From the NCBI GenBank assembly GCA_002721895.1, contig PBLV01000066.1, positions 1-27,006 on the forward strand: DNA of 27,006 bases, given 5' to 3'. A model generated the notes under the pieces. The model had not been told where the DNA came from. It did no database searches and saw nothing but the letters and a program-made list of their open reading frames with translations. The translations under genes were made by a program, and so were the position numbers. This document shows positions 7,150 to 24,682 of the stretch, in pieces. The DNA is from Verrucomicrobiales bacterium. Its GTDB lineage: Bacteria > Verrucomicrobiota > Verrucomicrobiae > Limisphaerales > UBA1100. Numbering within the stretch: the first letter of the stretch is position 1; each line of letters opens with the position of its first letter.

Positions 7150-9588
7150 ATGCGTCAGATAAAAATCATGTCAGCCAGACCCTCACCCCTCATCATTGCG
7201 TTATCCATTTTTGCATCCAGTTTAATTCTCCCCGCCGGGCCGGCCCCGGGCGGACCAGCCTTGCGGGGATCCATTGTGGAAGATCGCGCGGCACGCAAAC
7301 TGATTCAGGCCGGCGACCTCCGTTATGATGCCGGCGAAATGGAAAAAGCCGTGGAGATTTGGCAATCGGTCATTGAGCGGTATCCACGCAGCCGCGTGCG
7401 CTATGAGGCCCACATGAAACTGGGAGAACATTTTCTCAACCGCAAAAACGCGTATGACAAGGCACGGGCGAGCTTTGAGGCGGTGGCGAACGAGGAAAAC
7501 CGCGACGAGGACATGCGGGCAATGGCTATCCTCAAAACAGGGGTTTGTTTTTTCGAGGGGCGTCATTATGGCCAGTGCTTCAAGGTCATGCGGCGGGTCA
7601 TCGAGGAATTCCCCGTCTCCCAGCACGTAAACGAAGCTTACTACTACATAGGCCTCGGACATTTCCGCCAAGGACACTATGGACGCGCGATTGCCGCCTT
7701 GGAAAAGGTCGGCACGGCGGTGGGCGACAAGGATACCAACGCGGAAAAGCTGGAGGCCGGCAAGCGGTTTTTCGTGAAAATTGAGGATGCGGATCTGGCG
7801 ATTCTGGAAAAGGACGAATCGGTAAAGGTAACCTTGAAAACCTCCGAGGGCGACGAGGAGCAGGTGGACTGCATCCCCATTGGGCGCAATGTGCGCGTGG
7901 TCTTGGGAAGCGTTCCCACGCGGCTGGGCAAGCCACGCAAAGGCAATGGCATCCTGGAAGTCACTGGCACGGCCAAGGTACAGGTGCATTACACGGACGC
8001 TCACACGGCCGACCGCCAGTTTGACACACGGCGCGAAAAGCAGGTGGTGGTGGTGGGCAACGCGATGGTTCAGGTGATGGACGGCGCGTTTTCCGAGGCG
8101 CTGCAGGGCGTGGTTCTGGGCAAGGAGGCCAACCTGCAGGTCAACGATGCCGACCGGGATGTGAGCGATGGCGCGGATATCCTTCAGGTGCGCGTGGAGG
8201 TGTTGCGGCGCAAGACGGCGCTGGAGATCGAGGAGGAAAAAGCCAAGCTCATCGCCGAGGGCAAGCTGCAACCCGACACACCGGGGGAACAGCCGGAAGC
8301 ACCTGCAATCTCTGGCGTGACATTGCAACCGGAGGAACCGGAGATCGACCCCTTCAAGGTCATTGACACGGTGAGCATCAATCTCAAAGAGGCAGTTCTG
8401 CCCAAGACCAACCAGATCATCAACCGACCCGCGGACGAGAAAAACAATCCCGAGGAAAGCCCCGAAGCGCCGACAGAAATCGATCCACAACCAAGAGCTG
8501 AAGACAATCCAGCCGCGCCCCAGCCGGAGCAGCCAACCGCCAAGCCGGTGGAAGAGGTTGACGATGGCACCATCCACTCAGGCGTGTTCCGAGGCACAAT
8601 TCCCGTGGACCAAACTGACGAGGTCGTGCCCAACGACGCCAAGCTCCAAGCCATGCCCGGCGATTTCGTGCGCGTAAATTACCTCGACCAGCTCAACATC
8701 AGCCCCGGCCCGCGCGCCCTCGCCACCCGGGCCAAATGCGTGGAGGGCAACTTGGGCGGCGTGCGCGTCACCCGCACGGAAATCACCGATGCGGAACTGG
8801 AACTCAAAACCAAGCTCAAGACCGCCAGCGCCCTGACCCACATCGGCACCCAATACAGGGAATTTGGCCTCGATGAAAAAGCCCAGCTAAAATACAAGGA
8901 AGCACTGGGCGTCTGTGAAGAGATTGTTGATGACGCCCGCAAGTTGGGCGGCGGGATTCTGGAGGAAACCTACGTACAGCTCTGGAAGATCTATTTTGCG
9001 ATGGACCAGTTGAATCTCGCGGCCGCCATGAGCCTGCGTCTTCAGCGTGAATTCCCGGAGAGCGTTTATCTCGACGAGGCCATTCTCGCCCAAGCGCGCG
9101 TCGCGCAGAAGGGCGGCGACTACCAGCGCGCCATCGCGCTGTTCAACAACCTCACGCGCCTGACCAAGAGCCAGCTTCGCGGCGAGGGCCAGTATGGCAT
9201 TGGTGAATGTTACGAGGAAATGGCCAAGGCGGCCACCGGCAACAACCAACAGATGTTTGAGCGCGCTTTTCAGGCTTACAAGGCCGTGTTTGACCAGTTT
9301 CCTGAAAGCGGCCGCGTGGGCGACGCAGTCGCGAAAATGGCGAGCTTTTATTACCAGAAAAAGGACTACGCCCGGGCCGTGGACGTTTTCGAGAAGGTTC
9401 TCTCCGACCATCCGGACGCAAACTTCCTGGACGTAATCCTCTTCAACTACGGCCGCTGCCTCTACCGCATGAACCGGCGCGCCGAGGCCCGCAAGCGGTT
9501 TGACCAGATGATCGACGAATTCCCCGAGAGCCAACTGGCCCCCGAGGCCAAGCGCATCAGCCAGGCCCTTGCCAAGGCTGGCTTCTGA
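7150..9588 (+). CDS. Exported TPR / beta-sandwich / TPR protein, first gene of the motor-like operon
   Basis: About 812 residues from the ATG at 7150; another ATG at 7168 is also possible, and the long frame from TTG 7057 is unlikely. The start region gives a signal sequence (PLIIALSIFASSLILPAG). Residues ~45-205 hold TPR-like helical pairs (AGEMEKAVEIWQSVIERYP, GHYGRAIAALEKVG). A beta-rich region follows with the motif LQVNDADRDVSDGADILQV and, after a long Pro/Glu-rich insertion (~357-473), HSGVFRGTIPV and then DFVRVNYLDQ. Residues ~555-812 are again TPR-like (YQRAIALFNNLTRL, YARAVDVFEKVLSDHP, AEARKRFDQMIDEFPES). The same plan appears in the next, giant gene, which starts 29 bases downstream. 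It is expected to be periplasmic and a scaffold; its function is unknown. It could also be an outer-membrane-associated protein. Confidence 0.8.
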   Translation: MRQIKIMSARPSPLIIALSIFASSLILPAGPAPGGPALRGSIVEDRAARKLIQAGDLRYDAGEMEKAVEIWQSVIERYPRSRVRYEAHMKLGEHFLNRKNAYDKARASFEAVANEENRDEDMRAMAILKTGVCFFEGRHYGQCFKVMRRVIEEFPVSQHVNEAYYYIGLGHFRQGHYGRAIAALEKVGTAVGDKDTNAEKLEAGKRFFVKIEDADLAILEKDESVKVTLKTSEGDEEQVDCIPIGRNVRVVLGSVPTRLGKPRKGNGILEVTGTAKVQVHYTDAHTADRQFDTRREKQVVVVGNAMVQVMDGAFSEALQGVVLGKEANLQVNDADRDVSDGADILQVRVEVLRRKTALEIEEEKAKLIAEGKLQPDTPGEQPEAPAISGVTLQPEEPEIDPFKVIDTVSINLKEAVLPKTNQIINRPADEKNNPEESPEAPTEIDPQPRAEDNPAAPQPEQPTAKPVEEVDDGTIHSGVFRGTIPVDQTDEVVPNDAKLQAMPGDFVRVNYLDQLNISPGPRALATRAKCVEGNLGGVRVTRTEITDAELELKTKLKTASALTHIGTQYREFGLDEKAQLKYKEALGVCEEIVDDARKLGGGILEETYVQLWKIYFAMDQLNLAAAMSLRLQREFPESVYLDEAILAQARVAQKGGDYQRAIALFNNLTRLTKSQLRGEGQYGIGECYEEMAKAATGNNQQMFERAFQAYKAVFDQFPESGRVGDAVAKMASFYYQKKDYARAVDVFEKVLSDHPDANFLDVILFNYGRCLYRMNRRAEARKRFDQMIDEFPESQLAPEAKRISQALAKAGF

Positions 9589-9617
9589 CACATCACCTCG
9601 ACCATAATTAAAACAAG

Positions 9618-12600
9618 ATGAAAAAAACACTCCTCCTTTCCCTCCTGCTCCTGCCGCTGTGCGTGCCGGCCGCCGTACCCGCGGCCGAAGTGGACGCCAA
9701 GGCCAAGGCTCTCGAGGCCGAGTTGAGCAAGGCCCTCGATACCTCCCCCCAAGGCGCCAAGGCCATGATCGAGCTTGTGAACCTCTACCATGAACACGGC
9801 CGGGTCTTTGGCCTTGTGCGCGTGGGCGAACGGTTCGCCAAGGCACAATCCACCAATACGCAACACCGCGCCATCATGCTCAAGCTGCTCGACGGTCTGG
9901 AAGTCATGGCGCGCCGGGATGACTTCATCACTTACGCCCGCGAATACCTCTCGCGCTACCCGGACTCCACCGAGGCCATCGACGTTGTCCAACGCCTCGG
10001 CGATGCCCTCGTGCTCAACAATAAACGCATCGAAGCCGCCGACGCCTATCGCGCACTGTGGCTGCACAAGCCCATCGCCGCCAACCGCGTAGCCGGCCAG
10101 CGCGCCAGCGAACTCTATGTGCATACCGGAAACGGCCGCATCCGCATCCGCACCGCGGAAATGGCCGAAAGCCTCCTAGAGAAACTGCCCCCCAGCGAAT
10201 TCACCCTGCGCGCCGGCCTGCGTGCGGTTGAGCAATACCGCGCCAACAGCCGCTGGGCGGAAGCCAATGTCGCCGCACAAAAGATGTTTAAAAAAGGCCT
10301 GCCCCTCACCCGCCGCATGCAGCACCATCTGCATGAACTCATGGCCGCCAGCTATGCCTCCCAAAGCCAATGGGCCAACGCCGTGGCCAGCCTCAAGCAG
10401 GCCCGCAGTCTGGGCGACAGCGCGGAACTGCATGGCCGACAAATCGCCTACATGTACAACGCCGGCCTCAAGGCCGCCCAGATTGAGCCGGAAGTACGGG
10501 CCTTGGCCGGCCGCCACCCAAATTCACGTGAACGCTGGTCGACCTACTACTACGTGGGCCATGCCCACAATCGCGAGGGCAACCCGACCCAAGCCGCGCG
10601 CTACATCGCCGGTGCCCTTCCCCATGCCGCCAGTGCACATAGACTGGCCAACTACTATGTAAGCTGGCTCCTTGACTCCTCCCTGTCCGCGCGGAATTCC
10701 GCGCAAAACTCCGTGACCACCGCGCAAACCAACCTTGAGAATGCGAAGAAGGATGAAGCCGCCAAGCGCGATGCCTTCAACAAGGAATCTGATGCGGACA
10801 AGAAGAAAACCGCGCAGACCGCCCTTGCCGCCGCAACTAAGCTGGCGCAACAACGATCCACCGAACTGCAAAATGCTCAGCGCGACCTGACCGCCAAGGC
10901 CAACACCGTCAACCAAATGGCCGTCGAAGCCGACCGCACCCTCAATGCCGCGCTCAATCCCACCCGCCAAGCCAAGCGCGAAGGCGACCTGTTGGCCCTC
11001 CACTACGCGCGCGCGCGTGCGTTGTACATCGACCGCCTGAAGGACGACGCCAAGGGCCTCACCCATGCCCGGGCCGCCGCCAGAGAAACACATCTCTACA
11101 GTTCTCATCAATCGACACTCATTAGTGATCTCTTGGCCCGCCAGCCCGATGGCGGCCAGTTTCGGAATGATGTGGCCATGCTGCTAAAGGAGCGCCGTGA
11201 CCACATCACGGTGACCTACTACCGCGACTACGTTGGCAACTGGGCCTCCTCCATGCGCCGCGACAAAGTTCATCGCGGCAAAGCCCAGTACATCACTGGC
11301 CTGTTGGCTCAGGAAAACCAACGCCCCGAAGTCAACGCCTATCTCAAGAATGGCAGCCCCAACAGCAACGTGAAAAACGCCATCCCGTTGCGCGATCGCG
11401 CCCTGGCGAATTTCAGTGCACTAAGCAAGCGCAACCAATTCCACCTTGTCGGCACGCAACGTGGCGCGCTTATCAGCTACGCCAAGCAGCGTGATCCTGA
11501 GCGTGCCAAGCAACTCGCCATCCAATTGTTCAAGGCACATCCCCAAGATTACACCGCCGCCAGTTGGACCCTGCAAAGCCACCTCAATGACGAGGACAAG
11601 GAGGAGGCCAGAAAATACGCGCAGCAAATCCTAAGACTGCCCCCCATGGCCAAAGGTGAAAATATGGAGCTTGCGCGCGACTTGATGGGCGCGGCGGAAC
11701 GCAATGAAGACGCCGCGCTGGCGGTGCAGGTTTACCAATGGCTTATCCGCGGCAAAGTGCGCCCCATTTATGGAGACTACATCGGAGATGTCCTCTTCAA
11801 GCTCGGTCGCAGGAATGAAGCCTTGGGCTGGTGGCAGCGCGTTGCCGAGGCCCCCACCGAAAACCGCAACGAGGGGCGCACCTGCGCGGAACGATTTCTT
11901 CGCTTTGGCGGCAACCCACCAGCCCCCATGCGGGAGTTGATCGATTTCCGCTGGCCGGAAATGAGGGTGCGTATTGCCGCCTACAAGGCAACGGATGTCC
12001 TTCGGCTGCAGGGCAACGTGAAGGTCTTTGCCGAGGCGGTGAAGAAGATTGAAACTCAATCGGCCGGCATCCCCTTTGCCAACGAGGATTGGCGCAACTT
12101 TGCATCCCCTTGGCGTGATTTTGCCTATAGCAACAAGACCTACATCGAGAGCGATAACCCCACCTACAAGGACTGGAAGGAACTGGACGACGACGCGAAA
12201 CTGGAGGTCTTCCGTGTCGTGCGCGACCTTCGTGGACGCGATTCCTCAGCCTGGGCCGCGGGCGACCTGTTGGCGGCTGGGGCCACGGACGAAGAGCCGA
12301 CCATGGAACGTCTGCTCCGCCTCGTGCGCGTGACCAAGACCACTCACAACGATCACTCCCGCTGGAACACGTTCCGCAGCTACGCGCAAAAGGCATTCGA
12401 GGCCAAGCGCTACGTGGAAAGCGCCACCCTTCTCACCGGCATTCTGGCCCACGTGACCAACGTTCCGAAAGAGGAGAAGGATGCCGGTCGCGGCGCGGTA
12501 CTGCGCGCGCATTCACGCATGGGCGCGGTGGGTCTGACAATTGACGAGGACAGCCCCATGGCTCCCCTGCTCCAAGCTGCGCTGTATCTGCGCTTGGGCG

Positions 12601-15600
12601 ACAAGGCCAAGGCCCTGGAGATGTATCAGGACAACGCCGCGCTCTTTATGGAACACCGTGACAATCTTCCGCCGGACTTGATTCAGTTTGTCTGCAACCA
12701 CCTCATGGCCGCCGGGGGCGAGGACAATCTTCTGGCCGTGGAGGACACACTGCGCAGCTGGCTGGTGAAATACACCGACCCCGACAAGCCGGAGGGCAAG
12801 GAACAAAGCATCGATGCCAAGGCGGGGATGCAGCTGTTGCTGGCCAAGAGCTATTTCAAGGGGCAACGCTACGACGTGGCCCGTGCGGAGTATTCCACCG
12901 TGACCAACCGCTACACGGGCACCCCTCACGCCATCGACGCGCGGTTTGGCATTGGCGAGACTTACATGGCGCAAAAGGTCTTCGATCAGGCAGCCATGAT
13001 CTTTAAGAGTCTCGAGGAAAACCCTGACCTGCGCATCTCGGTGCGGGCGGAATTCCTGACCGGCGTGCTGGCTTTCCGACAGGAACAACACGACGAGGCA
13101 CGCGAAAAATTCCAGCATATTTTGGAGCGCGTCCCGGACGTGGAGCTGGCCAACCAGACTCTTTACAGTCTGTCCGAGATTTATGGGCTGGAGCAACGCT
13201 ATCTCCAGCAGCTCAACCTCTTGCGGACTGTCGGCCGACTCGGCCAGCACAGCAAGCGCCTACACACGCCGGGCAACGCACTCTCCATTGTCGTTCACGA
13301 TCGCGATCTGGGGGTCAGCCGGGGACAGGCGCGAATCCCCGTGATGGTCACCACCAAACCAGGAGGCGACAAGGAACTCGTGTATCTCCGCAGTTCAGCG
13401 GGTGCGGGCAAAGGACTTTTCCGCGGTGAAATCGACACCACACTGGCCAATGTCGCGCCGGGTGACGGCGTGCTGCAGTTGTCGGGGCGGGACGTGATCG
13501 AGAGCGATTACCCGGAGGAGTTTAAAAAGCAATTTCGGACCGTGCCACTTTCGGACGTGGAAATCCGCATTGCAGCGGATGGTGAATTTGCGGTGGCCAG
13601 CAGCGAGATCATTGATCAGGAAAAGGAGACCCTTACCGAACGGCTGCAGCGGGAGCAACGCGAACAGGACGACGCCGATCAGCGCGTATCACAAGGACGC
13701 CCGGCCAACCAAGTCAAGCCGGGCAACCGCATCTTCCTCCGAGTCAAGGATCCAGACCGCGACTTGGGCGATGACCTGGACAAGGTGCTGGTGACCCTGC
13801 GCGCGGACAGCGGGGATGCCGTACAGGTGGAGTTGGAGGAGACCGGTTCGCACACGGGCGAATTCAAGGCCACGATTCCAACCGCGGAATTGCCGGCCGG
13901 CGCGGCGGCAACCGATAGCGCCATCGACCACAACCCACTGATGGCCATTGACCATAGCCGCGAGAGCTATTGGCAAAGTGAACCGGATGGCCAAACCCCC
14001 AAGGCATTGACGGTTGACATGAAGCAGGTGTACGGCATCACGCGGCTGCGCATGTCGACGCCCAACGCGGTGGAGAATGCGCCAGTGCGGGCAACGGTGC
14101 TGGGGAGTCATGATGGAGTTTTCTGGTTCCAATTGGCAGCCAACCCAGGCATCCCCACCGCGGATTCAGTGGCGGAGGAAGTGGGTGCCATGAAACAACG
14201 CGTCTTCAAGGGTGACCACACGGGTTACACGACTTGGCGCCAGATTGCGGACCTCGCCCGAACCGGGACAGCCCTCAGTGAAGAAGAGGTTACTGTGCTG
14301 GAGTGGAGCCTTTCCGAGGAAAAAGATGATGAGCCGGGCGTGGAGAATCCGGAGGCAGCAGAGGCGCACTCGGTCCTGTGGCACGGCAAACTGGTTCAAA
14401 GGAAGGCGGGCGCATTGCGATTGGATGTAACGGGCGACCTGGTGGCAGTTGCCGTGAATGGCCGCCTCGAACTGGCGCCCGCCGCGGCGGCTGCGCGCAG
14501 GCCCGTTGATGTTTGGTTGAACCCGGGCATCCACGAGATCGCCGTGTTTGCAGCGGTGAAACAGGCTAAGAACGGTGTGTCGGCCCAGCGCGCACGTTCC
14601 AACCCAAACATCAGCAATCCTAAGCCCGTTTCGTTCACGGAGGAGGATTTTGACCTCGACGGAGCCGCTGAATTCTTCGGCGCGGAGCCAGCCATTAAAG
14701 AGAAGACCGCCCAGCCCATAGCGTCTGCGAACGATGAGTTTTCCTTCAATAAGAAAACGGAGAAATTTGGCATCGTCGAGGGACTGAAGCCCGAGGCCGA
14801 GGTGGTGGGCTACTGGCAGGCGCTGGAAGACACACTGCAGTGGAAGTTCAACGCCACTACACCGGGCGTTTATAATGTCTGGATGGAACTGGCGCATCAG
14901 GGCGGCGGCTCCAGTTACCGGATGACGTTTGGCGATCAGGTTATCGAGGCGGCCACGCCGAACACTGGCGCTTGGAGTACCTACCGAAAAATCCGGATTG
15001 GCGCAGTTCACATTGAAGAAGCGGGAGAAAAGACGCTGGCGATTGCGCCGGTGGAAATCGCAAACTCAGGCCTGATGAACCTTGCGGGAATTGAGCTTCG
15101 CCCCTCCAAGGGTGAAAACGTGATCCTACGCGATCGCAGTTGGGAATTTTTCTTTCCCGAAACGCCCATGCGCTATGTCCAATTCCAGGTTCATGAGTAC
15201 TTGGGCGACTCGGTGGCGGTCAATCACGTTGAGCTGCGCGGCCCGGAGGCGGCACCCATCCCAACTCAGGAAGATGTCAGCAAGCTCGCAACCAACGATA
15301 TTCTTGAGATCGCCGGTGGCGACACGGTGAACGCATCGTACACGGATGAAACCGCTGTGGCCGTGAACGGAGGCAGCCGCCTCCTGACGGCGCAACTTCA
15401 GGCCACCTATTACAATGCCAAGGTGGAGCCCATCTCGTTCGACTTCACCCGGACCGGCGGCGGGCAGGTGCAACAAACACGCAAGGAACTGCTGCGTGTG
15501 GATCCTGGCGAACGGGTGACCTTTGAGGTGGTCGATTACGACATGGACCAAACCGATGCCCGTGACAAGGTGCCTGTCAGCATTTGGCTCAATGGGCAAA

Positions 15601-17606
15601 AGTGGAAAGATCTTGAAGCCGTGGAGACGGAGGAATACTCCGGCACATTCCGCGTGGAGGTGGACACCGCCGAGGCCCCGGCGGATGGCAAGCTGGTGAT
15701 CCAGCGTGGCGACACGATCATCTGCCGATACACAGACAAGCAAAATACCTTTCCCGGCAACACCGTGGACCGGGAGGGGCAGGTCTTCGCGAATGAACCG
15801 ACCGAGGGCCGCCTGCGGATCGTTGAGACGCGCCTCATCCAGCCGCCGATCGGCAGCGATGCGCCGCCGCGCACCGAATACCTGCCCGAGTCCGAAGAGC
15901 CGCTGGCCGCCGATCATCAGGCACGGGTGAATTACTTTGCCCCCCTGACCGTGGAGGTGATCGATCCCGACGCCGCCAAGGACGGCCTCTCGACCGTAAA
16001 AGTGATTTTAAACGCGGGAACCACCAACGCGGTGGAAGTCACCTGCCAACTCTCCACGCAGTTTGGCGACTTTAGCAATCTGGACACAACCCAGGCCAAC
16101 CAAGCTCTGCTCTTGGGCCGTTTCATCGGCCAGGTGCGCATGCAACTGGGCGGCGAGGGCAGCCCCACCACCATTCCACGCGCGCTGGGTGACAACATGA
16201 GCCTTGTCGGGCGCGTCCGTGTGGCGGGCACGGAGGAGGATGAGAATGAACCAAACAGCAATCTGGTTCACACCGTCCTGAACGTAAACGGCAAATCCAC
16301 GCTAAACGCCGCTTATGAGGATGCATTGAGGCCCGGGGGCACGCCACAAAAGTTGGCCGCAAGAGGCCGGCTGGTGACGGATGGCACCATGGCCATCACC
16401 GAGGAGGACTACAAGGAGCCACTGGAACTGCTGCACGTTGGTGAAAAACTCTATGTGATTGTCAACGACCCGGACCTAGACATTTCCGATGAACGCGACG
16501 CGGCCGAGATCACCATCCAGAGTGAATCCGGCGAACTGGAGACAGTGAAGATTGAGGAAACCCTGAGCCACAGTGGTGTATTCACCGGCTCGATGGATTT
16601 AAAGGCGCGCGAAAAACCGGAGCCCGGGAATTTTGACCCAGCCGAGATGAAGATTGAATGCTTCTTTGGCGACAAGCTGAGCATCGGCTACACCGACAAC
16701 GCGGCCGGCACCCTGGAGGGCAATGCCACCCTGCGTGCCGAGATACCCGTGGCGATCGGAACAGACGGCTTGGTCTCCGCCTTCAGCAAGATATTTGGCA
16801 ACCAACAACTGGCCGTCCAGACACAGTTCCACATTGCGGAGAGTTACTTCGAGCTCTTCAAGAACAACCTTGCGCTCGAACGCAAGGATGAATCTCAGAA
16901 GGCACTGCGCGCGGGCCGCCGAATGCTAAAGGAAATCATGGTGGATTATCCCGACCCCAAGTATCTCCCACGCATCGCCTATCTCAGCGGGCAATTTTCG
17001 CAGGAGTTGAAGGACTGGAACGAGGCCGCCAACAGTTACGCGTTGATCGTGCGCCAATACCCCAACCACACGCTCGCCGCGGATGCGCAATACAAGCTGG
17101 CACAGTGCTATGAGGAAGCGGAGGATTTCGACCGCGCGCTAGAGGAATACGTCACCCTCGCCGCCACTCACCCCAAGAGCCCGCTGATCCCCAAGACCAT
17201 GATTCGCATCAACGAGTATTTCTACAAGCGCGAGAACTACAAGATCGCCGCCAAGGTGGCCGAAAAGTTCATGGACCGGTTCAGTGACCACGAGGCCGCG
17301 CCCAAAATGGGATTCCGCTGGGGCCAGTGCCACTACAAGAACGAAGCCTACGCCAAGGCGGCCGAGGTCTTTGACCTGTTCGTCAAGAAATTCCCGGACG
17401 ACTCCTTGTCCGCTCAATCCATCTTCTGGGCCGGAGAAAGCTGGCGCATGGCCAACAACGTGCCACAGGCGTTCCGCCGTTACAACCGCTGCCGCTGGGA
17501 CTTCCCCGAGAGCGAGGCCGCCCAGTTCGCCCGCGGCCGACTGGCCCTGCCGGAGATGCTCCGGCAATTCGAGGCCGAAGCCAACTCGGTGGACAATGAC
17601 AATTGA
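9618..17606 (+). CDS. Giant (2662-residue) exported TPR protein with Ig-like modules and nested F5/8C, PA14-like and CBM6-like domains
   Basis: The ATG at 9618 begins a clear signal peptide (MKKTLLLSLLLLPLCVPAA). Rough order: TPR-like helices ~30-350; a charged Ala/Lys-rich coiled coil ~360-450; more helical repeats to ~1205, including FDQAAMIFKSLEENP. Ig-like modules with the pattern VxDxDxD...ET..H(S/T)G.F.G....GD....YTD begin near 1221, 1369, 1960, 2105 and 2278. The second is interrupted near 1430 by an F5/8C-like segment (AIDHSRESYWQSEPDG). That segment is itself interrupted by a PA14-like stretch (~1584-1651, WLNPGIHEIAVF) and a CBM6-like domain (~1729-1830, GVYNVWMELAHQGGGSSYR) before F5/8C resumes at ~1851 (RYVQFQVHEYLG). 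C-terminal TPRs span ~2388-2662 (YALIVRQYPNHTLAADAQYK). Probably periplasmic or surface-exposed and possibly glycan-binding. No membrane anchor or sorting domain is evident. ExbB follows after 45 bases. Confidence 0.85.
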   Translation: MKKTLLLSLLLLPLCVPAAVPAAEVDAKAKALEAELSKALDTSPQGAKAMIELVNLYHEHGRVFGLVRVGERFAKAQSTNTQHRAIMLKLLDGLEVMARRDDFITYAREYLSRYPDSTEAIDVVQRLGDALVLNNKRIEAADAYRALWLHKPIAANRVAGQRASELYVHTGNGRIRIRTAEMAESLLEKLPPSEFTLRAGLRAVEQYRANSRWAEANVAAQKMFKKGLPLTRRMQHHLHELMAASYASQSQWANAVASLKQARSLGDSAELHGRQIAYMYNAGLKAAQIEPEVRALAGRHPNSRERWSTYYYVGHAHNREGNPTQAARYIAGALPHAASAHRLANYYVSWLLDSSLSARNSAQNSVTTAQTNLENAKKDEAAKRDAFNKESDADKKKTAQTALAAATKLAQQRSTELQNAQRDLTAKANTVNQMAVEADRTLNAALNPTRQAKREGDLLALHYARARALYIDRLKDDAKGLTHARAAARETHLYSSHQSTLISDLLARQPDGGQFRNDVAMLLKERRDHITVTYYRDYVGNWASSMRRDKVHRGKAQYITGLLAQENQRPEVNAYLKNGSPNSNVKNAIPLRDRALANFSALSKRNQFHLVGTQRGALISYAKQRDPERAKQLAIQLFKAHPQDYTAASWTLQSHLNDEDKEEARKYAQQILRLPPMAKGENMELARDLMGAAERNEDAALAVQVYQWLIRGKVRPIYGDYIGDVLFKLGRRNEALGWWQRVAEAPTENRNEGRTCAERFLRFGGNPPAPMRELIDFRWPEMRVRIAAYKATDVLRLQGNVKVFAEAVKKIETQSAGIPFANEDWRNFASPWRDFAYSNKTYIESDNPTYKDWKELDDDAKLEVFRVVRDLRGRDSSAWAAGDLLAAGATDEEPTMERLLRLVRVTKTTHNDHSRWNTFRSYAQKAFEAKRYVESATLLTGILAHVTNVPKEEKDAGRGAVLRAHSRMGAVGLTIDEDSPMAPLLQAALYLRLGDKAKALEMYQDNAALFMEHRDNLPPDLIQFVCNHLMAAGGEDNLLAVEDTLRSWLVKYTDPDKPEGKEQSIDAKAGMQLLLAKSYFKGQRYDVARAEYSTVTNRYTGTPHAIDARFGIGETYMAQKVFDQAAMIFKSLEENPDLRISVRAEFLTGVLAFRQEQHDEAREKFQHILERVPDVELANQTLYSLSEIYGLEQRYLQQLNLLRTVGRLGQHSKRLHTPGNALSIVVHDRDLGVSRGQARIPVMVTTKPGGDKELVYLRSSAGAGKGLFRGEIDTTLANVAPGDGVLQLSGRDVIESDYPEEFKKQFRTVPLSDVEIRIAADGEFAVASSEIIDQEKETLTERLQREQREQDDADQRVSQGRPANQVKPGNRIFLRVKDPDRDLGDDLDKVLVTLRADSGDAVQVELEETGSHTGEFKATIPTAELPAGAAATDSAIDHNPLMAIDHSRESYWQSEPDGQTPKALTVDMKQVYGITRLRMSTPNAVENAPVRATVLGSHDGVFWFQLAANPGIPTADSVAEEVGAMKQRVFKGDHTGYTTWRQIADLARTGTALSEEEVTVLEWSLSEEKDDEPGVENPEAAEAHSVLWHGKLVQRKAGALRLDVTGDLVAVAVNGRLELAPAAAAARRPVDVWLNPGIHEIAVFAAVKQAKNGVSAQRARSNPNISNPKPVSFTEEDFDLDGAAEFFGAEPAIKEKTAQPIASANDEFSFNKKTEKFGIVEGLKPEAEVVGYWQALEDTLQWKFNATTPGVYNVWMELAHQGGGSSYRMTFGDQVIEAATPNTGAWSTYRKIRIGAVHIEEAGEKTLAIAPVEIANSGLMNLAGIELRPSKGENVILRDRSWEFFFPETPMRYVQFQVHEYLGDSVAVNHVELRGPEAAPIPTQEDVSKLATNDILEIAGGDTVNASYTDETAVAVNGGSRLLTAQLQATYYNAKVEPISFDFTRTGGGQVQQTRKELLRVDPGERVTFEVVDYDMDQTDARDKVPVSIWLNGQKWKDLEAVETEEYSGTFRVEVDTAEAPADGKLVIQRGDTIICRYTDKQNTFPGNTVDREGQVFANEPTEGRLRIVETRLIQPPIGSDAPPRTEYLPESEEPLAADHQARVNYFAPLTVEVIDPDAAKDGLSTVKVILNAGTTNAVEVTCQLSTQFGDFSNLDTTQANQALLLGRFIGQVRMQLGGEGSPTTIPRALGDNMSLVGRVRVAGTEEDENEPNSNLVHTVLNVNGKSTLNAAYEDALRPGGTPQKLAARGRLVTDGTMAITEEDYKEPLELLHVGEKLYVIVNDPDLDISDERDAAEITIQSESGELETVKIEETLSHSGVFTGSMDLKAREKPEPGNFDPAEMKIECFFGDKLSIGYTDNAAGTLEGNATLRAEIPVAIGTDGLVSAFSKIFGNQQLAVQTQFHIAESYFELFKNNLALERKDESQKALRAGRRMLKEIMVDYPDPKYLPRIAYLSGQFSQELKDWNEAANSYALIVRQYPNHTLAADAQYKLAQCYEEAEDFDRALEEYVTLAATHPKSPLIPKTMIRINEYFYKRENYKIAAKVAEKFMDRFSDHEAAPKMGFRWGQCHYKNEAYAKAAEVFDLFVKKFPDDSLSAQSIFWAGESWRMANNVPQAFRRYNRCRWDFPESEAAQFARGRLALPEMLRQFEAEANSVDNDN

Positions 17607-17651
17607 CCCGGCCTGCCCCACCCTCCAAGGTTTGCCCGATCTGATTCTTAA

Positions 17652-18563
17652 ATGAAGCTGTTGCTCATCCCTCTCACCTGTCTCGCCTTGGCCATCACTG
17701 GCTGGGCCGCCAACCCGCCCGTTCCCCTCAAGGGCCCGGAGGCAAACGCCACCAGCGACGCCAATGCAACCGGAGACAACAACAACACTGATGATCCTGA
17801 CGACGAACCACCCACTGACGAAAGCGCCGAACCCGCGCCCCAACCAACCTGGTTAGACAAACTCAAGGGCAAAGGTCCCATTGGACTGCTCATCACAGGC
17901 GGCTGGTTCATGTTACCCATCCTGCTGCTCGCCATTCTGGCGCTGGCCGTCATCATCGAGCGTTGGCGATCCCTGAAAATGCTGAACACCGACAACGAGA
18001 CCCTGCGCCAATCCGTATTGGACGACCTTACCAACGACCGCCCCGAGGAAGCTCTGGCCCGCTGCGACAACGAGCGCGGCCCGGTCGCCGCCGTGCTCGC
18101 CAACGGCATGCGCAAATACATCGTCCTCCGCAAGCTTGGTTACGACCCCGGCCGCCTGGAGGAACAAGTCGTCAAGAGCATGGAAAACTACGGCGTCCAT
18201 ATCGTTGCCGCCTTGGAGCGGCATCTGGCCATCCTCGCCATCATCTCCAGTGTCGCCCCCATGCTCGGCTTCCTTGGCACCGTGGCCGGCATGATCGAGT
18301 CGTTCAATGACATCGTGCAAAACGTCGAGAACGGCACCAGCAAGAACATCGTCACCGACGCTGCCAACGGCATCCGGGTTGCCCTGCTCACCACCTGCTT
18401 CGGGCTGATGGTTGGCATCCCCGCCTTCATGGCTTTCAACTATTTCTCCAACGTCATCAATACCTTCGTGCTTGAGGTGGAGGAATCCGCCACCCAGTTG
18501 ATGGAAGCCGTCACCCTGCAACTCACCCTTGATCAGGCCGACACGAACGAACGCCGCGAATAG
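17652..18563 (+). CDS. MotA/TolQ/ExbB proton channel family protein with signal peptide and acidic N-terminal extension
   Basis: 303 residues. After a signal-like leader (MKLLLIPLTCLALAITGWAA) comes a hydrophilic acidic linker (~21-66, rich in D, N, T, E and P), then three membrane helices at ~80-104, ~192-217 and ~241-268, as in ExbB/TolQ. The family signature lies in helix 2 (SSVAPMLGFLGTVAGMIESF), and T210 plus T247-T248 in helix 3 (VALLTTCFGLMVG) occupy the polar pore positions expected of the family. Predicted role: pentameric proton-channel stator driving work across the envelope with the ExbD partners that follow directly. The leader and linker make it longer than a typical 230-250-residue ExbB; similar extended forms occur in PVC and Bacteroidetes proteins. 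The start at ATG 17652 follows the giant gene by 45 bases. The next gene starts two bases after the stop. Confidence 0.92.
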   Translation: MKLLLIPLTCLALAITGWAANPPVPLKGPEANATSDANATGDNNNTDDPDDEPPTDESAEPAPQPTWLDKLKGKGPIGLLITGGWFMLPILLLAILALAVIIERWRSLKMLNTDNETLRQSVLDDLTNDRPEEALARCDNERGPVAAVLANGMRKYIVLRKLGYDPGRLEEQVVKSMENYGVHIVAALERHLAILAIISSVAPMLGFLGTVAGMIESFNDIVQNVENGTSKNIVTDAANGIRVALLTTCFGLMVGIPAFMAFNYFSNVINTFVLEVEESATQLMEAVTLQLTLDQADTNERRE

Positions 18564-18565
18564 CA

Positions 18566-18961
18566 GTGAAACTCCGCCGCCAAGCCTTGCTCACCGAGCC
18601 CCCTGCAAGCGCCACCAGCGACATCGCTTTTATTCTCATCATTTTCTTTCTCGTTTGTGCCTCCATCCAGGAGGACGATGGACGCCCACAGGAAATCCCC
18701 AACTCCGACAAGGAACGCCAATCCAAGAACCCCATCCGCGTCGGATTGGAGCGTGACCACATCAAACTTAACGGCGAAGTCATGGCCATGCAGGTATTCG
18801 AGAAAAAACTGGCCACCCTCCTCGATCAAAAGGTCAACGAAGCCGAGAAAACCGTTGCCGTCCGCTGCGGCCCCACCGTCCCCTACGGGCGCTGGATGGA
18901 AGTCACCGCCCTGATTGAGGATTCCGGCGGAACCATCACCCTCATGCGCAAGGTCCAATGA
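18566..18961 (+). CDS. Biopolymer transporter ExbD/TolR family protein (first copy)
   Basis: 131 residues. The start is GTG 18566, two bases after the ExbB stop and supported by this coupling. Short cytoplasmic N-terminus, then one transmembrane helix (~20-38) with the essential membrane aspartate at D19 (ATSDIAFILIIFFLVCASI), the proton-carrying residue of ExbD/TolR. The periplasmic domain (39-131) carries the ExbD pattern IRVGLERDHIKLNGEVM, ..EKTVAVRCGPTVPYGRWMEV and a final segment on a paired strand. It should dimerise inside the ExbB pentamer. The ATG of the second ExbD gene overlaps its stop (ATGA at 18958-18961). It is clearly diverged from the second copy, so the two are probably not redundant. 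Confidence 0.92.
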   Translation: MKLRRQALLTEPPASATSDIAFILIIFFLVCASIQEDDGRPQEIPNSDKERQSKNPIRVGLERDHIKLNGEVMAMQVFEKKLATLLDQKVNEAEKTVAVRCGPTVPYGRWMEVTALIEDSGGTITLMRKVQ

Positions 18962-19386
18962 TCCTTCAGCGACGCAAGATGAACGCCGAGGTGCCATCCA
19001 TGGCCATGGGTGACATAGCCTTTCTGCTGCTCATTTTTTTTATCATCCTCGCGCGGGTTACCGACGACAGCCACGTGAAGGTCAATAAGGCCTCCGGCGA
19101 GGAACTGGAGAAACCCAAGAGCAAGCGCGTCAGCGTAGCCATTGACACCAATCAAATCACCTACCTCAATGGCGTACGCATCAATCCTGACACGATCACC
19201 GCGGCTCTGTACCAGCCCGATGCGCCCCCCGGTCAGCAGGGCCTCCTCGGCGAACTGCCACCCGGCCAGCGCACCGTGCTTTTAAAGATAGACAAGGACA
19301 CCCCCGCATACCTGTTCGAACCCGTCATCGAGGCCGTCAGCAAGGCCGGCGGCGAACTGCACCATGTCCTGGAGGAGAAAAAATGA
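18958..19386 (+). CDS. Biopolymer transporter ExbD/TolR family protein (second copy)
   Basis: 142 residues. The membrane helix (~20-38) again has D19 at its cytoplasmic edge (MGDIAFLLLIFFIILARV), and the periplasmic domain contains KRVSVAIDTNQITYLNGV and QRTVLLKIDKDTPAYLFEPV, both ExbD-type elements. A loop of about 15 residues rich in Pro, Gly and Gln (YQPDAPPGQQGLLGELPPGQ) is inserted between them and is absent from the first copy. ATGA overlaps on both sides (with ExbD-1 at 18958 and with the GYF gene at 19383) argue for tight translational coupling and stoichiometric synthesis. Two TolR-type subunits with one TolQ-type subunit is also the arrangement of the Myxococcus AglRQS motor; that similarity is noted from knowledge of that system, not from alignment. 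Confidence 0.92.
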   Translation: MILQRRKMNAEVPSMAMGDIAFLLLIFFIILARVTDDSHVKVNKASGEELEKPKSKRVSVAIDTNQITYLNGVRINPDTITAALYQPDAPPGQQGLLGELPPGQRTVLLKIDKDTPAYLFEPVIEAVSKAGGELHHVLEEKK

Positions 19387-20090
19387 TCAACCGGCCCGTG
19401 CCGGCCGTCCAACCCTACGCGAACATGCAACTATACGTTTTAAAGAACAACGAAAAGCTTGGCCCCTTGGAGCTGGAGGAAGTTCGCAACCTTCTCGCCA
19501 CCGGCAGCCTGAACCCCGCCGATCAGGCATGGCATGAGGGCGCCGAGAACTGGGCGCCCCTCTCGGACATTCCCGGTGCCATGAAAAAATCCAAGGGCGC
19601 CAAGGCGGATGTCAGGAAACCCCGCGCCTCCGAGCCCGCGCAACCCATGTCCAGCGTGGCCCGTGACGTTAAAAACCTGAAGGCCAACACCTCCACCACT
19701 ACTGCCGAGATTCGGGCGTTTCTGGCGGAGATGCAGGGCAAATCCCCACGCGAAATGCTGGGTGTCATCGCCCAGAGCAGCCTTGTCTCCAGCCTCGCAC
19801 TGTCCACCGTCATTATCACCCTTTTGCTGGCTGGCTTCACCGGCCTTGCCTTCGCCATCGGGGATGATCCATCGCCGCCGTCAATCAAGGCGAAAAAACA
19901 AGAACCCCAACCCGAGCCCAACCCAAAGGCCGGCGCCAAGGCTCCACCCAAGATGGATACCCGCACCCTCGAGGAAAAGGCCGCCAAGGCCATGGGCGTC
20001 GACAAGGCAAAGAAAGGGCAACCCAAGGAAGTTAACCCCTTCGGCAGCAAGCCCGGCGGCGACGACATCCTCGGCGAAATAGACAATTAG
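19383..20090 (+). CDS. GYF-domain protein with one membrane helix and a Pro/Lys-rich periplasmic tail
   Basis: 235 residues. Residues ~16-66 form a GYF_2-type domain (LYVLKNNEKLGPLELEEV ... ADQAWHEGAENWAPLSDI). A linker with basic and coiled-coil-like character follows, then a single strong membrane helix at ~133-160 (VIITLLLAGFTGLAFAIG). The C-terminal ~75 residues are rich in Pro, Lys and Glu (KKQEPQPEPNPKAGAKAPPK), ending with an acidic tip (GDDILGEIDN). The positive-inside rule and absence of a signal peptide put the GYF domain in the cytoplasm and the P/K tail in the periplasm, like TonB/TolA spacers, but no TonB C-terminal domain is present. The ATG at 19383 overlaps the ExbD stop; the internal ATG at 19425 is an alternative that would start just before the GYF domain. 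Likely a motor adaptor or transducer (inference). Confidence 0.82.
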   Translation: MINRPVPAVQPYANMQLYVLKNNEKLGPLELEEVRNLLATGSLNPADQAWHEGAENWAPLSDIPGAMKKSKGAKADVRKPRASEPAQPMSSVARDVKNLKANTSTTTAEIRAFLAEMQGKSPREMLGVIAQSSLVSSLALSTVIITLLLAGFTGLAFAIGDDPSPPSIKAKKQEPQPEPNPKAGAKAPPKMDTRTLEEKAAKAMGVDKAKKGQPKEVNPFGSKPGGDDILGEIDN

Positions 20091-20104
20091 TTTTTCATGT
20101 GCGC

Positions 20105-22249
20105 ATGAAACACTTACCCCGCATTTGCGCGTTGATCCTGATAGTCGGGTTTTTCCTGCCCTGCTTGCCCAGTGGCATCAGCGGGGTGTCCCTTGTGGAG
20201 GGAGGCATCATGCTGGCGGATATATCGCCTGAAGCCTTGGAGGCCATCGAGCACGTGGTTGAAACCATGTTCATGGTCGAAATAGCAGACCTGAAGATCC
20301 AAACGGGATTACTTTCACTTTTGCTTCTGGCCACGGCCCTAATTCCCGCCACTGCCCTTGCCGCCCTTGTTTTGGATAGCAAACCCGCCCATGCCGCCTC
20401 CGGCTTGGTTTCCATTGTTCTCCTTGCCGCTTGGTCATTCAAGTTTGGGAAACCCATCTTTGACACCCTCGCCTATGGAAGCTGGATTTGCCTAGGATCT
20501 GGAATAGCTCAGTTGTTTGTTGCCAGCAAAAGCCGAGAGTTGCCCTTGGGCGACTTTCTGGCCGATGTGGAAAACTTCACGGTCACCTATGCTTCCCAAC
20601 TATGGGGAATTATGATCGTGCTATTCTGGACATGCCTGATCGCCGACGCCTTGTATACCCGTCACCTGCCCCTTTGGCTGCCAATCACCGCGCTCGTCCT
20701 TCAAGTCACTGGCGCCGTGTGTTGGCTTTCCCAATTGCGCGGCAAACTTGAGGCTCGCGGCATTTCCGGTAAAACATCGATCATCGCGATCCCCTTCGCC
20801 GTTTCAATGCTCATCACTTGGGGCTATCTCTGGTTTCTCTGGCATCCCGGCGCCGCATTCATCTCCGACACGCTGCTCTGGACGGGCTTCTCCATCGCCT
20901 TCGCCGTCGCCCTGCTTGGCCTCGGCACATTCCGAGCCTATGCGCGCCCCCACTGGGGGCGGCGGGAATTCTGGATGATCGCCACCGCCGCCTTCATCCC
21001 CACTTGGCAATGGTTCGTCTTCGCCACGGATTTCTTCGCCCTCGAGGGCCTGAGAGTCGCCGTCGCCAAGGGAGGCTTGTTAACTGCCTTCTTCGTCGGG
21101 CTCGCCTGGACGATTCACTGGGTAGAGAATCGCTCCCGCGAAATCCAGCTCCTGCGCCGTTCCAGCAACCCCACAGGTCTGGCCCAAGCTTCGCCATTGG
21201 ACGCCATGAATCGCTCCATCGCTTCCCCGGACAAACGCACCTGGAACCCCCTCGACATGGATGCTTGGTACTACGGCCGCCAACGACAAAAGCTCAAGCA
21301 ATCCCTCAATGCCTTTGCCAGCTACACCGCCCTTTTCATCGCCATCTTTCTCCTCCTGATGAGCCTGACTGGCTGCCAGGAAATCTATGAACTCCCAGCA
21401 GGTGGCGGGGAGCCGGAACTCAAGCAAAAGGTTATCAAGCAAATCATCAAGATCAAGGAGGTGCCCATCGTCAACCCGCTCAGCAACCTCATCCGCCCCG
21501 TGCCACCCATTGAGGAGATTTTAAAGAACATGCTTGAGGAAACCATGCACCGCTACGAGGTTGGACAGGGCCAGGGCAAGGGCGCAGGCTTTGCCGGGGG
21601 CACAAACAAGGGCAAGGTTCGCTTCATCCGCCTCCGCTATGCCGGGGGCGACTGGGATCAGGATCTGGATTTAAACTCCGACCTGAACATGCTCCTCTGG
21701 TACGCCTCCAACACCGGTCAGCCCGCCGCCAAGCTTCCGGAAGTCCGCAGTATCGGGCAACTCCGCAACTTCCCCAAGATGAAGAGCCCGCCACTCGTTT
21801 ACATGACCGGCGAACGTGGCATCTCCATCTCCAGCTCTGAAGTCGAAACCCTGCGCGAATACTTGGTCGACAAACACGGCATGCTTTTAGCTGACAATGG
21901 CGGCAGTATCACGTGGCACAATGCGTTCATGAATCTTATGGAGCGCCACGTGCTGCCCAACGTCAAAAAACGCAGAATACCCATCGATCATCCCGTACAC
22001 AGCGGACTCGCGGCCGTTCCAATGCCCTTCCCCCACGATGGCGGGAAAGGCGTCGTTTACGGGTGGACTATTGAAAACCGCATCGCGGTATACTATCATC
22101 CTGGAGATATCGGTGATGCATGGGCTGATGGACACGCTGGCATATCCCGCCAACACTGGATGGCCTGCTATCGCCTCGGCGGAAACATCATCCTCTACGC
22201 ACACTCGGAGTACAGCAAATGGTTGCAGACACAAAAACAAAAGGACTGA
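20105..22249 (+). CDS. Polytopic membrane protein with C-terminal DUF4159 domain
   Basis: 714 residues from the ATG at 20105 (a GTG two codons upstream is the alternative). About ten hydrophobic helices lie between residues 5 and 340 (for example ~66-90, ~163-183, ~222-246, ~252-276, ~322-340). A soluble loop follows, then another helix at ~403-421 ending in LLMSLTGC, a lipobox-like sequence in mid-protein. Residues ~504-712 match DUF4159: VRFIRLRYAGGDWDQDLDLN, LREYLVDKHGMLLADNGG, the IPIDHPV element and YRLGGNIILYAHS. DUF4159 has a glutamine-amidotransferase-like fold in related families, but its function is unknown and no catalytic Cys is evident here. In PVC genomes DUF4159 genes are often near ExbB/ExbD and TPR genes (from memory). 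The 3' end overlaps the next gene by 31 bases. Confidence 0.82.
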   Translation: MKHLPRICALILIVGFFLPCLPSGISGVSLVEGGIMLADISPEALEAIEHVVETMFMVEIADLKIQTGLLSLLLLATALIPATALAALVLDSKPAHAASGLVSIVLLAAWSFKFGKPIFDTLAYGSWICLGSGIAQLFVASKSRELPLGDFLADVENFTVTYASQLWGIMIVLFWTCLIADALYTRHLPLWLPITALVLQVTGAVCWLSQLRGKLEARGISGKTSIIAIPFAVSMLITWGYLWFLWHPGAAFISDTLLWTGFSIAFAVALLGLGTFRAYARPHWGRREFWMIATAAFIPTWQWFVFATDFFALEGLRVAVAKGGLLTAFFVGLAWTIHWVENRSREIQLLRRSSNPTGLAQASPLDAMNRSIASPDKRTWNPLDMDAWYYGRQRQKLKQSLNAFASYTALFIAIFLLLMSLTGCQEIYELPAGGGEPELKQKVIKQIIKIKEVPIVNPLSNLIRPVPPIEEILKNMLEETMHRYEVGQGQGKGAGFAGGTNKGKVRFIRLRYAGGDWDQDLDLNSDLNMLLWYASNTGQPAAKLPEVRSIGQLRNFPKMKSPPLVYMTGERGISISSSEVETLREYLVDKHGMLLADNGGSITWHNAFMNLMERHVLPNVKKRRIPIDHPVHSGLAAVPMPFPHDGGKGVVYGWTIENRIAVYYHPGDIGDAWADGHAGISRQHWMACYRLGGNIILYAHSEYSKWLQTQKQKD

Positions 22250-23865
22250 CCCGCGCGCTGGCCGCCGCCAGCCTCGTCTTCACCCTCACCAGCAAGGCCG
22301 CCCTCGGCTATTTGGAACAAATCCCTGTCGAGACCTTCGCCAAGATGCGTGAGGTCGAGCGTTACCAGATGCGCATCGCCGAGAAGCTCTACCTGCGCGG
22401 CGAGTTCAAGGCAGCCATGAGTGAGTACGAGAAATACCTCACCCTTTATGAGCGCAGCCTCGGAGCTCCCTACGCCCAACTCATGTGGAGCCACTGCCTC
22501 GTCAAGCAACGCAAGGTTTACACCGCCATTCGCGAGGGATTCCTGTCGGTCATCGACTACTGGCCCGAGTCCCACGAGGCCGCGCTCGCCGCCTACCTCA
22601 TTGGCTGGAACTACAAGAACGCCGGCGAACTCCCCAACGCCGAGAAAGCCTATTTGCGGGCAATCAATGACTATGAGTCCCACCACGTTGCGGTGCTTTC
22701 CAAGTGGGACCTGACCGAGCTTTACGGCGAACAAAAGAAACAGGTCCAGCGGGTTGCGATCTGGAAAGACCTTTCCTACAAGGTCAAACGCACTAAGGAA
22801 AACAGTTCCATTCTCGTCAGTGCCAGCCGCAGCCTTTGCTCCCACCACTTTTACAATGGCGATTTTCCCGAGGGCCTCAAGGCACTGGAAACCTCGTATA
22901 AAACGACCTCCCTCGTCTATTACGCCTACATCCACGCTCGCTCCCCCGTGAACACCCTCACCGGCGATCCCAACAAGAAGCCCCTGGGTGAAAAACTCGC
23001 CGACCAGGCCATTGCCTTCATCCGTAAACAAGCCCCCGCCACAACCGGCACTGATGACGAGAAAAAACAAATCCGCAAATACTACAGCTACATGGCTGAC
23101 CTGCACGCCTCCGCCCGGCGTGACCGTGAAGGGCTGCAGACTTGGGAACAACTGGGCAAGATTCTAGGCATGGATGATGGCATCCGCGGCTCCATGGCCG
23201 ACTGGCACATCGCCCGCAAACGCTTTACCGAAGGCCGCAAGCTCCACGAACAGTTTCAAGACAAGATCAAAGGGTTGGAGAAAATCGCCGACGTTTACGC
23301 CGACAAGAGAAAGGATTATCAGCCCGACAAAGCCGTGGACACCTACAACCGCATCATCGGCCTCGATGACAAGGAGAACAAGGGTACTTGGGATGAAAAA
23401 ATTGCCGCCACTTGGTTCAACGCCAAAAAATGGGACGAAGCCATCGCCGCCTATCAAGTGCTGCTAAAATCCGCTCCAGATAAATTTGGCACCTGGTACC
23501 GGCAAATCGGCCTGTGCTACGAGTACAGCAATCGCATTCCCACCGCCATCCAGTCCTACCGGCAATCCGACTATTTCCCAAAAGTATACTTCGACATCGC
23601 CCGCTGCCACCGCAAGCTCAAGCAATGGAAGGAAGCCCTTGTCGTCTATCACCAGGCCCGAGCCGACAAGGGTGCCGCCCCTGAGGCTTCCATCCAGATC
23701 GGCTTCACCTACGAGGATTCCGGCAGCCGCGAAAATGCCATCAAGTGGTTCCAACAAACCTGCAAGCTCTATCCCAAGAACTCGCAGGCCAGTGTAGCCC
23801 ACGCCCATTTGCAGAGGGAATACAAGATCAGCATCACCCTCGGCGGTGCCACGGACGACAAATAG
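22219..23865 (+). CDS. Periplasmic TPR protein, last gene of the operon
   Basis: 548 residues. The start is ATG 22219, inside the end of the DUF4159 gene (31-base overlap). The N-terminus has a basic region and a hydrophobic stretch (LTRALAAASLVFTLTSKAALG) that reads as a signal peptide. The rest is helical repeats of TPR type: FKAAMSEYEKYLTLYERSLG, LPNAEKAYLRAINDYESH, WDEAIAAYQVLLKSAPDKFG, PTAIQSYRQSDYFPKVYFDI and ENAIKWFQQTCKLYPKNSQA. No beta domain is present, in contrast to the two TPR genes at the head of the operon. It is probably a periplasmic adaptor in the same complex, comparable in position to the TPR protein CpoB/YbgF of Tol-Pal operons (inference from context). A terminator follows about 110 bases downstream. 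Confidence 0.85.
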   Translation: MVADTKTKGLTRALAAASLVFTLTSKAALGYLEQIPVETFAKMREVERYQMRIAEKLYLRGEFKAAMSEYEKYLTLYERSLGAPYAQLMWSHCLVKQRKVYTAIREGFLSVIDYWPESHEAALAAYLIGWNYKNAGELPNAEKAYLRAINDYESHHVAVLSKWDLTELYGEQKKQVQRVAIWKDLSYKVKRTKENSSILVSASRSLCSHHFYNGDFPEGLKALETSYKTTSLVYYAYIHARSPVNTLTGDPNKKPLGEKLADQAIAFIRKQAPATTGTDDEKKQIRKYYSYMADLHASARRDREGLQTWEQLGKILGMDDGIRGSMADWHIARKRFTEGRKLHEQFQDKIKGLEKIADVYADKRKDYQPDKAVDTYNRIIGLDDKENKGTWDEKIAATWFNAKKWDEAIAAYQVLLKSAPDKFGTWYRQIGLCYEYSNRIPTAIQSYRQSDYFPKVYFDIARCHRKLKQWKEALVVYHQARADKGAAPEASIQIGFTYEDSGSRENAIKWFQQTCKLYPKNSQASVAHAHLQREYKISITLGGATDDK

Positions 23866-24494: not shown

Positions 24495-24535
24495 GCGTTC
24501 AATCTAGCACAAGCACACAAATTGAGAAAGCTGTG

Positions 24536-24676: not shown

Positions 24677-24682
24677 GTAAAT

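Follow-up and report, generated by a model that had tools for sequence, protein, structure and literature searches.

A conserved gene cassette in Verrucomicrobiota and Planctomycetota that appears to encode a proton-driven trans-envelope machine

We studied a stretch of 27,006 nucleotides from a Verrucomicrobiales bacterium (GenBank contig PBLV01000066.1), which we call the window. Between positions 7150 and 23865, its plus strand carries eight co-directional open reading frames (ORFs) with intergenic gaps of 29, 45, 2, -4, -4, 8 and -31 bases (Table 1). An earlier interpretation made from the letters alone (the sequence-only reading) had described eight co-directional genes with small gaps or overlaps, encoding one ExbB, two ExbDs, a polytopic DUF4159 protein and three exported TPR proteins, one of them a giant. 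The ORF coordinates and Pfam matches (MotA_ExbB, ExbD and ExbD) bear out this layout, and hydropathy agrees with a polytopic DUF4159 protein. By eye, each TPR protein has a signal-like N-terminal segment, and the giant indeed has 2662 residues. A strong terminator was also claimed at the end of the cluster, but the only structure there is a 5-pair hairpin (23863-23876) that is flagged on the minus strand and has no plus-strand T run downstream. Rfam (gathering threshold) and ARAGORN gave no match over the window. We place the start of TPR843 at ATG 7150, although its ORF extends upstream to TTG 7057. The DUF4159 protein probably starts at ATG 20105, and a 714-residue database record of the same protein exists.

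Table 1. Genes of the cassette and domains of the giant protein in the window (TM, transmembrane segment; CBM, carbohydrate-binding module)
Feature	Position	Strand	Properties
TPR843	7150..9588	+	Signal-like N-terminus, TPRs at both ends, non-TPR middle; TPR_6 111 bits
Giant TPR protein, 2662 aa	9618..17606	+	Signal-like segment, N-terminal TPRs, beta-rich middle, conserved C-terminal TPRs
Predicted CBM32 / F5-8 type C-like (galactose-binding-type) domain of giant	13893..15251	+	Residues ~1426-1878, interrupted by insert
Predicted CBM6/CBM35-like module inserted in giant	14706..15113	+	Residues ~1697-1832
C-terminal TPRs of giant	16875..17603	+	Among the giant's best-conserved stretches
ExbB/TolQ-type motor protein	17652..18563	+	MotA_ExbB 87 bits; N-terminal signal-like extension
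ExbD1/TolR-type subunit	18566..18961	+	ExbD 51.8 bits; channel Asp19
ExbD2/TolR-type subunit	18958..19386	+	ExbD 55.3 bits; channel Asp19
Single-TM slot protein	19383..20090	+	GYF_2 47 bits, [SGN]P-x-E-x-[LM]G motif, TM ~134-152, linker, C-terminal NP..DD.L tail
TM-anchored DUF4159 protein	20099..22249	+	DUF4159 84.8 bits; polytopic N-terminus, AWYYG, TM 405-423, linker, DUF4159 domain 508-701
TPR548, exported TPR protein, last gene	22219..23865	+	Pfam TPR, signal-like N-terminus

We scanned the genome contigs of 84,980 species (one genome each) once, using an alignment of 17 DUF4159 proteins (A1) as the query. The locus counts below refer to the best 80 of 131 confirmed stretches, which comprise 50 from Verrucomicrobiota, 28 from Planctomycetota and 2 unassigned. 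The DUF4159 gene is present in all 80 loci, the slot protein in 71, ExbD2 in 70, TPR548 in 68, ExbD1 in 65, ExbB in 60, the giant in 54 and TPR843 in 18. Upstream genes are missed more often because many loci are cut short by the end of the contig or by the 10-kb flank limit. The full set of six from ExbB to TPR548 is found in 49 loci, and in 46 of these the genes are in order; over-long ORF starts look like the cause of the three misordered cases (apparently L068, L074 and L075). Where TPR843 occurs, it lies 5′ of the giant in 16 loci and 3′ of TPR548 in two (L018 and L021), whose order is rearranged yet linked. No other family in the flanks recurs nearly as often as the cassette genes, and by eye the remaining large clusters appear to be the eight genes read antisense or in a shifted frame. 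Because the genes recur together in 80 loci, their grouping is not a matter of chance. A survey of the gene neighbourhood had been proposed with the sequence-only reading, and synteny is in fact conserved in both Verrucomicrobiota and Planctomycetota. A second protein search with A1 yielded four further proteins (P0034-P0037), and a search of viral contigs gave no match.

Sequence patterns make the identity of a proton-driven motor well supported. The window's proteins exceed the Pfam cut-offs for MotA_ExbB and ExbD and have the channel Thr and Asp, placing them in the ExbB/TolQ and ExbD/TolR families. Both ExbB patterns, GT[VI]xGM and LLTT, are kept in 61/61 proteins. The channel-Asp pattern is found in 63 of 66 ExbD1 proteins (D[IV][AVG]F) and in 69 of 71 ExbD2 proteins (GDI[AG]F).

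The history of the cassette was studied with a quick tree of the DUF4159 proteins of the 80 loci and the window. This tree splits by phylum, with 2 changes per phylum compared with about 24 in shuffles, and two Phycisphaera-type rows fall on the Verrucomicrobiota side. The window pairs with L002 (support 100), near L001, L009 (Pedosphaera) and L013, which makes a Verrucomicrobiota host the most likely one. Pairwise distances of seven cassette proteins correlate with r of 0.78-0.93 in 40 rows (39 loci and the window), values unmatched for any pair in 200 permutations and due in part to shared descent. Among the 97 genomes of the family of genome G001, 21 have a DUF4159 match with E of 1e-20 or better. 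These divide into 15 with the window's type of cassette, which we call type A (E 2.5e-161 or better), and six with weaker matches only. Of 199 Planctomycetota and 194 Verrucomicrobiota genomes sampled, only the seed genome in each set had type A; these counts are lower bounds, because at most 6 candidates were scored per genome. The cassette is thus apparently old, inherited mostly by descent and often lost.

Individual loci contain additional genes. PSCyt2/PSD1 and DUF1501 proteins lie between TPR548 and TPR843 in the two rearranged cassettes (L018:13026-16740 and L021:4781-8314), which adjoin each other in the DUF4159 tree. In L067 (11995-12644), two small genes that by eye are toxin-antitoxin-like separate DUF4159 from TPR548.

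The family and the two phylum samples together gave 33 distinct weaker DUF4159 matches, of which we fetched 23 (L103, L104, L108 and L110-L129). ExbB and two ExbDs stand beside DUF4159 in all 21 of these sister loci with sufficient contig, although the second ExbD of L104 is split over two ORF pieces; L118 and L126 end before the motor genes. We sorted the 21 loci into types B (8 loci), B-like (6), C (5) and D (2). Every type B (8/8) and type C (5/5) locus and 5/6 B-like loci have a giant that is related to the one of L108 or of the window, but none was detected in type D (0/2). The L108 giant has TPRs and an F5/8C match below the cut-off (22.8 versus 28.2 bits). The last two genes of type B cassettes (L103, L104, L108, L110-L113 and L128) encode a polytopic protein of about 390 residues and a large one, which in L108 is a DUF6288 protein with HEAT repeats and a PDZ match under the cut-off.

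The TonB motif has the spacing S16/H20. Most sister DUF4159 anchors share a Ser-x3-His with the TonB and TolA anchors: it is found in 19 of 23, compared with 22 of 295 TM-like windows of ORFs from these loci and L107, a contrast that gives no clean probability because the rows are related. The 19 of 23 counts as misses L114 and L129, in which the anchor was not found and no His is seen by eye. In PMC12204202, the motor-binding motif of TonB and TolA is given as Ser-X-His-X-Leu-X-Ser. The sister slot proteins with a detected single TM also have a His within it, by eye, in 15/15 cases. This count leaves aside L115, L123, L125 and L127 (no TM slot ORF listed), L118 and L126 (unscanned) and the two type D slots. 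The latter (L122 and L124) are polytopic proteins of 364 and 380 residues with 5 and 6 predicted TMs that keep an acidic C-terminal tail.

The sequence-only reading had also suggested an ExbB phylogeny as a check. Our quick LG+G4 tree has 70 rows, including 24 other ExbB-type rows from genomes G001, G003, G034, G054 and G400, one of which is very long-branched and two of which are identical after trimming. The 22 type A ExbBs form one clade (support 100), with type D adjoining (97), and types B and C form another (85). The 24 other rows are set apart (89), and three TolQ/ExbB segments from the Protein Data Bank (PDB) sit on their own side of the tree (98). One row labelled as other (L139) is the type A ExbB of G054 itself, since its position falls in the type A cassette L107. 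The cassette ExbB is thus not nested among the other ExbB-type proteins of these five genomes, which belong to the Planctomycetes-Verrucomicrobia-Chlamydiae (PVC) group. In G001 and G054, TonB_C lies within a few kb of ExbB-type genes of the other group, so the cassette and the Ton system have separate motors in these genomes. The separate clade and the conserved synteny in two phyla support the earlier proposal of a distinct PVC envelope motor. We conclude that the cassette is real, self-contained and apparently ancient, that it appears to encode a proton-driven trans-envelope machine and that it has sisters built on the same plan.

The sequence-only reading described a GYF-TM protein. The window's slot protein does have GYF_2 and one TM, but GYF is not its defining part, as it occurs in only 12 of 72 slot members (the window and 11 loci, by phmmer at E 0.01 with the window's own GYF as the query). 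By contrast, the [SGN]P-x-E-x-[LM]G motif ahead of the TM is found in 66 of 72 members and NPL, NPF or NPR near the C-terminus in 70; a stricter tail pattern with acidic residues holds for 53. More constant than GYF are the slot protein itself, with its one TM and conserved tail, the DUF4159 protein anchored by a TM, and the TPR giant.

The DUF4159 protein has an AWYYG stretch that is invariant in the 17 A1 rows, although YYG was not found in 44 of the 81 rows of a wider set. Its AlphaFold2 (AF2) model (pLDDT 80.7) has a predicted fold matching the DUF4159-type protein 4i66 (E 1.6e-8, TM-score by target 0.78). Some DUF4159 relatives (P0024, P0025, P0034 and P0035), which are 1042-1816 residues long, have a precomputed TM2 domain (PF05154) beside DUF4159.

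In an alignment of 43 long rows of the giant, the majority-residue fraction is 0.70-0.85 in blocks 2401-2650; conservation is lower at the N-terminus because some loci begin inside the giant. An AF2 monomer model of residues 1230-2420 (pLDDT 80.8, pTM 0.63) is predicted to contain a CBM32-like domain, a CBM6/35-like insert and immunoglobulin (Ig)-like repeats. The structural alignment rows cover mainly model residues 197-649. A long insert at the CBM6/CBM35-like site is present in 15 of the 43 aligned giants.

Type A genomes are rich in sulfatases. In the 97 family genomes, loose first-look counts that were not corrected for kinship give a median of 147 sulfatase candidates in the 15 type A genomes and 42 in the other 82 (Mann-Whitney p 3e-7), or 27.6 versus 11.7 per Mb (p 1e-6). 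All 15 type A genomes are sulfatase-rich, and none of the 51 genomes with fewer than 50 candidates has type A. In the 13 genomes that have weaker matches, the trend is less marked (81 versus 43).

We tentatively suggest, at slightly under even chances, that the cassette is a PVC-type proton-driven trans-envelope machine that handles, and most likely imports, large glycans. ExbB would be the channel, and an axle made of one ExbD1 and one ExbD2 would rotate as protons flow through. Like TonB and TolA, the small slot protein with its single TM and the DUF4159 protein may act as inner-membrane partners that pick up this motion, and both could relay it to the three exported TPR proteins. Of these, the giant would serve as a long arm in the periplasm. 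The tail of the slot protein could dock onto the giant's conserved C-terminal TPRs, and polysaccharide that is past the outer membrane, or retained there, may be bound by the giant's CBM-like domains. Among possible cargoes glycans have the best support, and among directions import is the likeliest, but neither is proven. Surface-glycan handling was one of the functions offered by the sequence-only reading, and it gains support because of the predicted CBM-like domains and the sulfatase-rich genomes; motility, another of them, gained none.

Planctomycetes held labelled chondroitin sulfate in the paryphoplasm (excerpts of PMC5520146), and marine Akkermansiaceae take up fucoidan (PMC13174399). 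According to excerpts of PMC12323593, it has yet to be determined how selfish uptake proceeds when SusC/D are lacking. A bolder proposal is that the cassettes are proton-driven importers that work independently of SusCD, with giant periplasmic arms that bear CBMs and with DUF4159 or small single-TM transducers. They would come in at least four types and perform selfish polysaccharide uptake in Planctomycetota and Verrucomicrobiota, and the window's type would have replaced the TonB/TolA His by another coupling. We consider this proposal as a whole rather unlikely.

Several observations weigh against glycan import. Among the eight proteins, Pfam finds no outer-membrane protein domain and, specifically, no SusC beta-barrel or SusD. 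The cassette is rare, with at most 131 stretches in the 84,980 species genomes, and most cassette genomes also have TonB, as 18 of 20 encode TonB_C outside the cassette. The looseness of the sulfatase counts matters here as well: type A is missing from 31 of the 46 genomes with at least 50 sulfatase candidates, and type A genomes are larger (median 4.3 versus 3.35 Mb). The long insert is absent from 28 of the 43 giants, and CBM-like folds can exist without glycan binding. The flanks do not share a substrate. From 189 downstream ORFs of 47 loci, chosen by rough coding score, we took the first three per locus (132) and scanned 123, leaving out nine near-copies in L051, L054 and L076. Among the families listed (25 of 73 and 25 of 125), none occurs in more than 4/66 or 3/57 members. 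The motif residues of TonB and TolA are also scarce in type A. A His is found in 1 of 72 slot TM segments (L009) and in 10 of 81 DUF4159 anchor segments, by eye outside the expected place. Ser-x3-His is found in 1 of 81 DUF4159 segments (by eye L068), where it is located before the TM. The first anchor test used the YYG anchor, present in 37 of 81 rows, and the repeat used another anchor on all 81. Because the window's type lacks this His, the coupling of the sister types cannot be copied to type A. Finally, selfish uptake is depicted as Sus-like and TonB-dependent in excerpts of PMC5520146.

It is unlikely, but the best of the alternatives, that the cassette is instead a proton-driven exporter or assembler, in which a surface layer or adhesive matrix would be moved or held in place by the motor with its TPR arm, and the giant would have a structural, S-layer-like role. 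The structural likeness comes with a poor global superposition (TM-score 0.14), and strings of Ig-like domains alone may account for it. The CBM-like domains and the association with sulfatases fit cargo binding better, and the outer-membrane exit needed for export is likewise missing.

A Tol-Pal-like system that tethers the outer membrane during division, in a lineage without TolB, has a low probability in our view. In NCBIfam, the window's ExbB scores higher as TolQ (103.5 bits) than as ExbB (64.7), but neither cut-off is reached (221 and 206.2, respectively). TPR843 (109.5 bits) and the giant (109.4) exceed the YbgF model cut-off of 90.1. TolB_N is unmatched in all 20 cassette genomes, as the hypothesis would have it, with positive controls in E. 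coli, Caulobacter and Bacteroides. However, TolB_N is also unmatched in all 97 family genomes, of which 82 are without type A, so its absence is not particular to cassette genomes and shows no complementarity with type A, although a divergent TolB could escape the search. The occurrence of type A is moreover patchy (15/97), as that of a housekeeping system would not be. Pfam and NCBIfam find no TolA, TolB or Pal in the cassette; the genome-wide search covered TolB_N but not Pal or TolA.

We regard as equally improbable the idea that the DUF4159 protein is an enzyme or sensor that the motor merely energises or gates. The match to 4i66, weaker structural matches to amidotransferases and many conserved His and Asp residues (e.g., the YYHPGD..DAW.D.H stretch) could fit such a role. 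No catalytic triad was identified, and none was tested for. The Ser-x3-His in the TM of most sister DUF4159 proteins points to force coupling.

The Agl motor of Myxococcus consists of one TolQ and two TolRs. The likeness to Agl-Glt that the sequence-only reading saw is retained in this motor count and in the GYF domain of some members (NCBIfam GltJ 30.4 bits; PDB 7z3c of GltJ/AglX type, E 1.6e-4), but a gliding or adhesion motor of this kind is very improbable, given that GYF occurs in so few cassettes and that GltJ, matched through its GYF part far under its cut-off of 450, is the only Glt family matched among the eight proteins.

We also considered that the cassette might be the Akkermansia mucin-uptake locus MUL1, and dropped the idea without its being disproved. 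As described in PMC13174399, glycan accumulation inside this member of Verrucomicrobiota depends on mul genes. A1 had no match in seven genomes rich in M60 peptidases, whose Akkermansia-like identity is inferred, and profile A5 gave one weak ExbD in each of two (E 1.2e-5 and 2.4e-5) and none in five. MUL1 is called Sus-like and lacks synteny in aquatic Akkermansiaceae (PMC13174399).

Among the closest known systems are the von Willebrand factor A (vWA) force-transducer systems of PVC and other bacteria. In PMC12204202, these have a TPR gene, one tolQ-like gene, two unlike tolR-like genes and then a TM-anchored linker protein with a Rossmann-type C-terminal domain; their function is given as unknown there too. 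The end domain in the cassette is DUF4159, with no vWA found by Pfam in the DUF4159 protein (P0007) and a predicted fold that matches 4i66. The cassette adds the small single-TM protein, the giant with predicted CBM-like domains and more TPR partners, and the window's type differs from the vWA systems in having no motif His. In the literature searched, TPR, ExbB and ExbD together with the stem Planctomycet- led only to PMC12204202, and the term DUF4159 was not found. The cassette resembles ExbB-ExbD-TonB and TolQ-TolR-TolA in its motor families and conserved channel residues, but it has two unlike ExbDs and two candidate transducers. Pfam finds no TonB_C among the eight proteins, and the Ser-x3-His of these transducers is not seen within the TM in the window's type.

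The sugar-binding-type domains predicted in its giant arm make the cassette a candidate for the device by which some PVC bacteria pull large polysaccharides into the cell. If the cassette family does carry out selfish uptake, the question could be tested by gene deletion in one cultivable strain. Even with another cargo, motors of one ExbB and two ExbDs with giant periplasmic TPR arms in two phyla would widen the known tasks of ExbBD/TolQR.

We now note genes adjacent to the cassette. In L020, a TonB-dependent receptor begins 25 bases after TPR548. Upstream of the cassette in the window (2292-7040) are a pseudopilin-like gene, a PQQ-propeller protein and an alpha/beta hydrolase; the loci of most relatives are too short upstream to compare. 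Downstream, the minus strand (24006-27006) encodes a DUF2059 protein, a metallophosphoesterase and, at the window end, a weak trypsin-like fragment.

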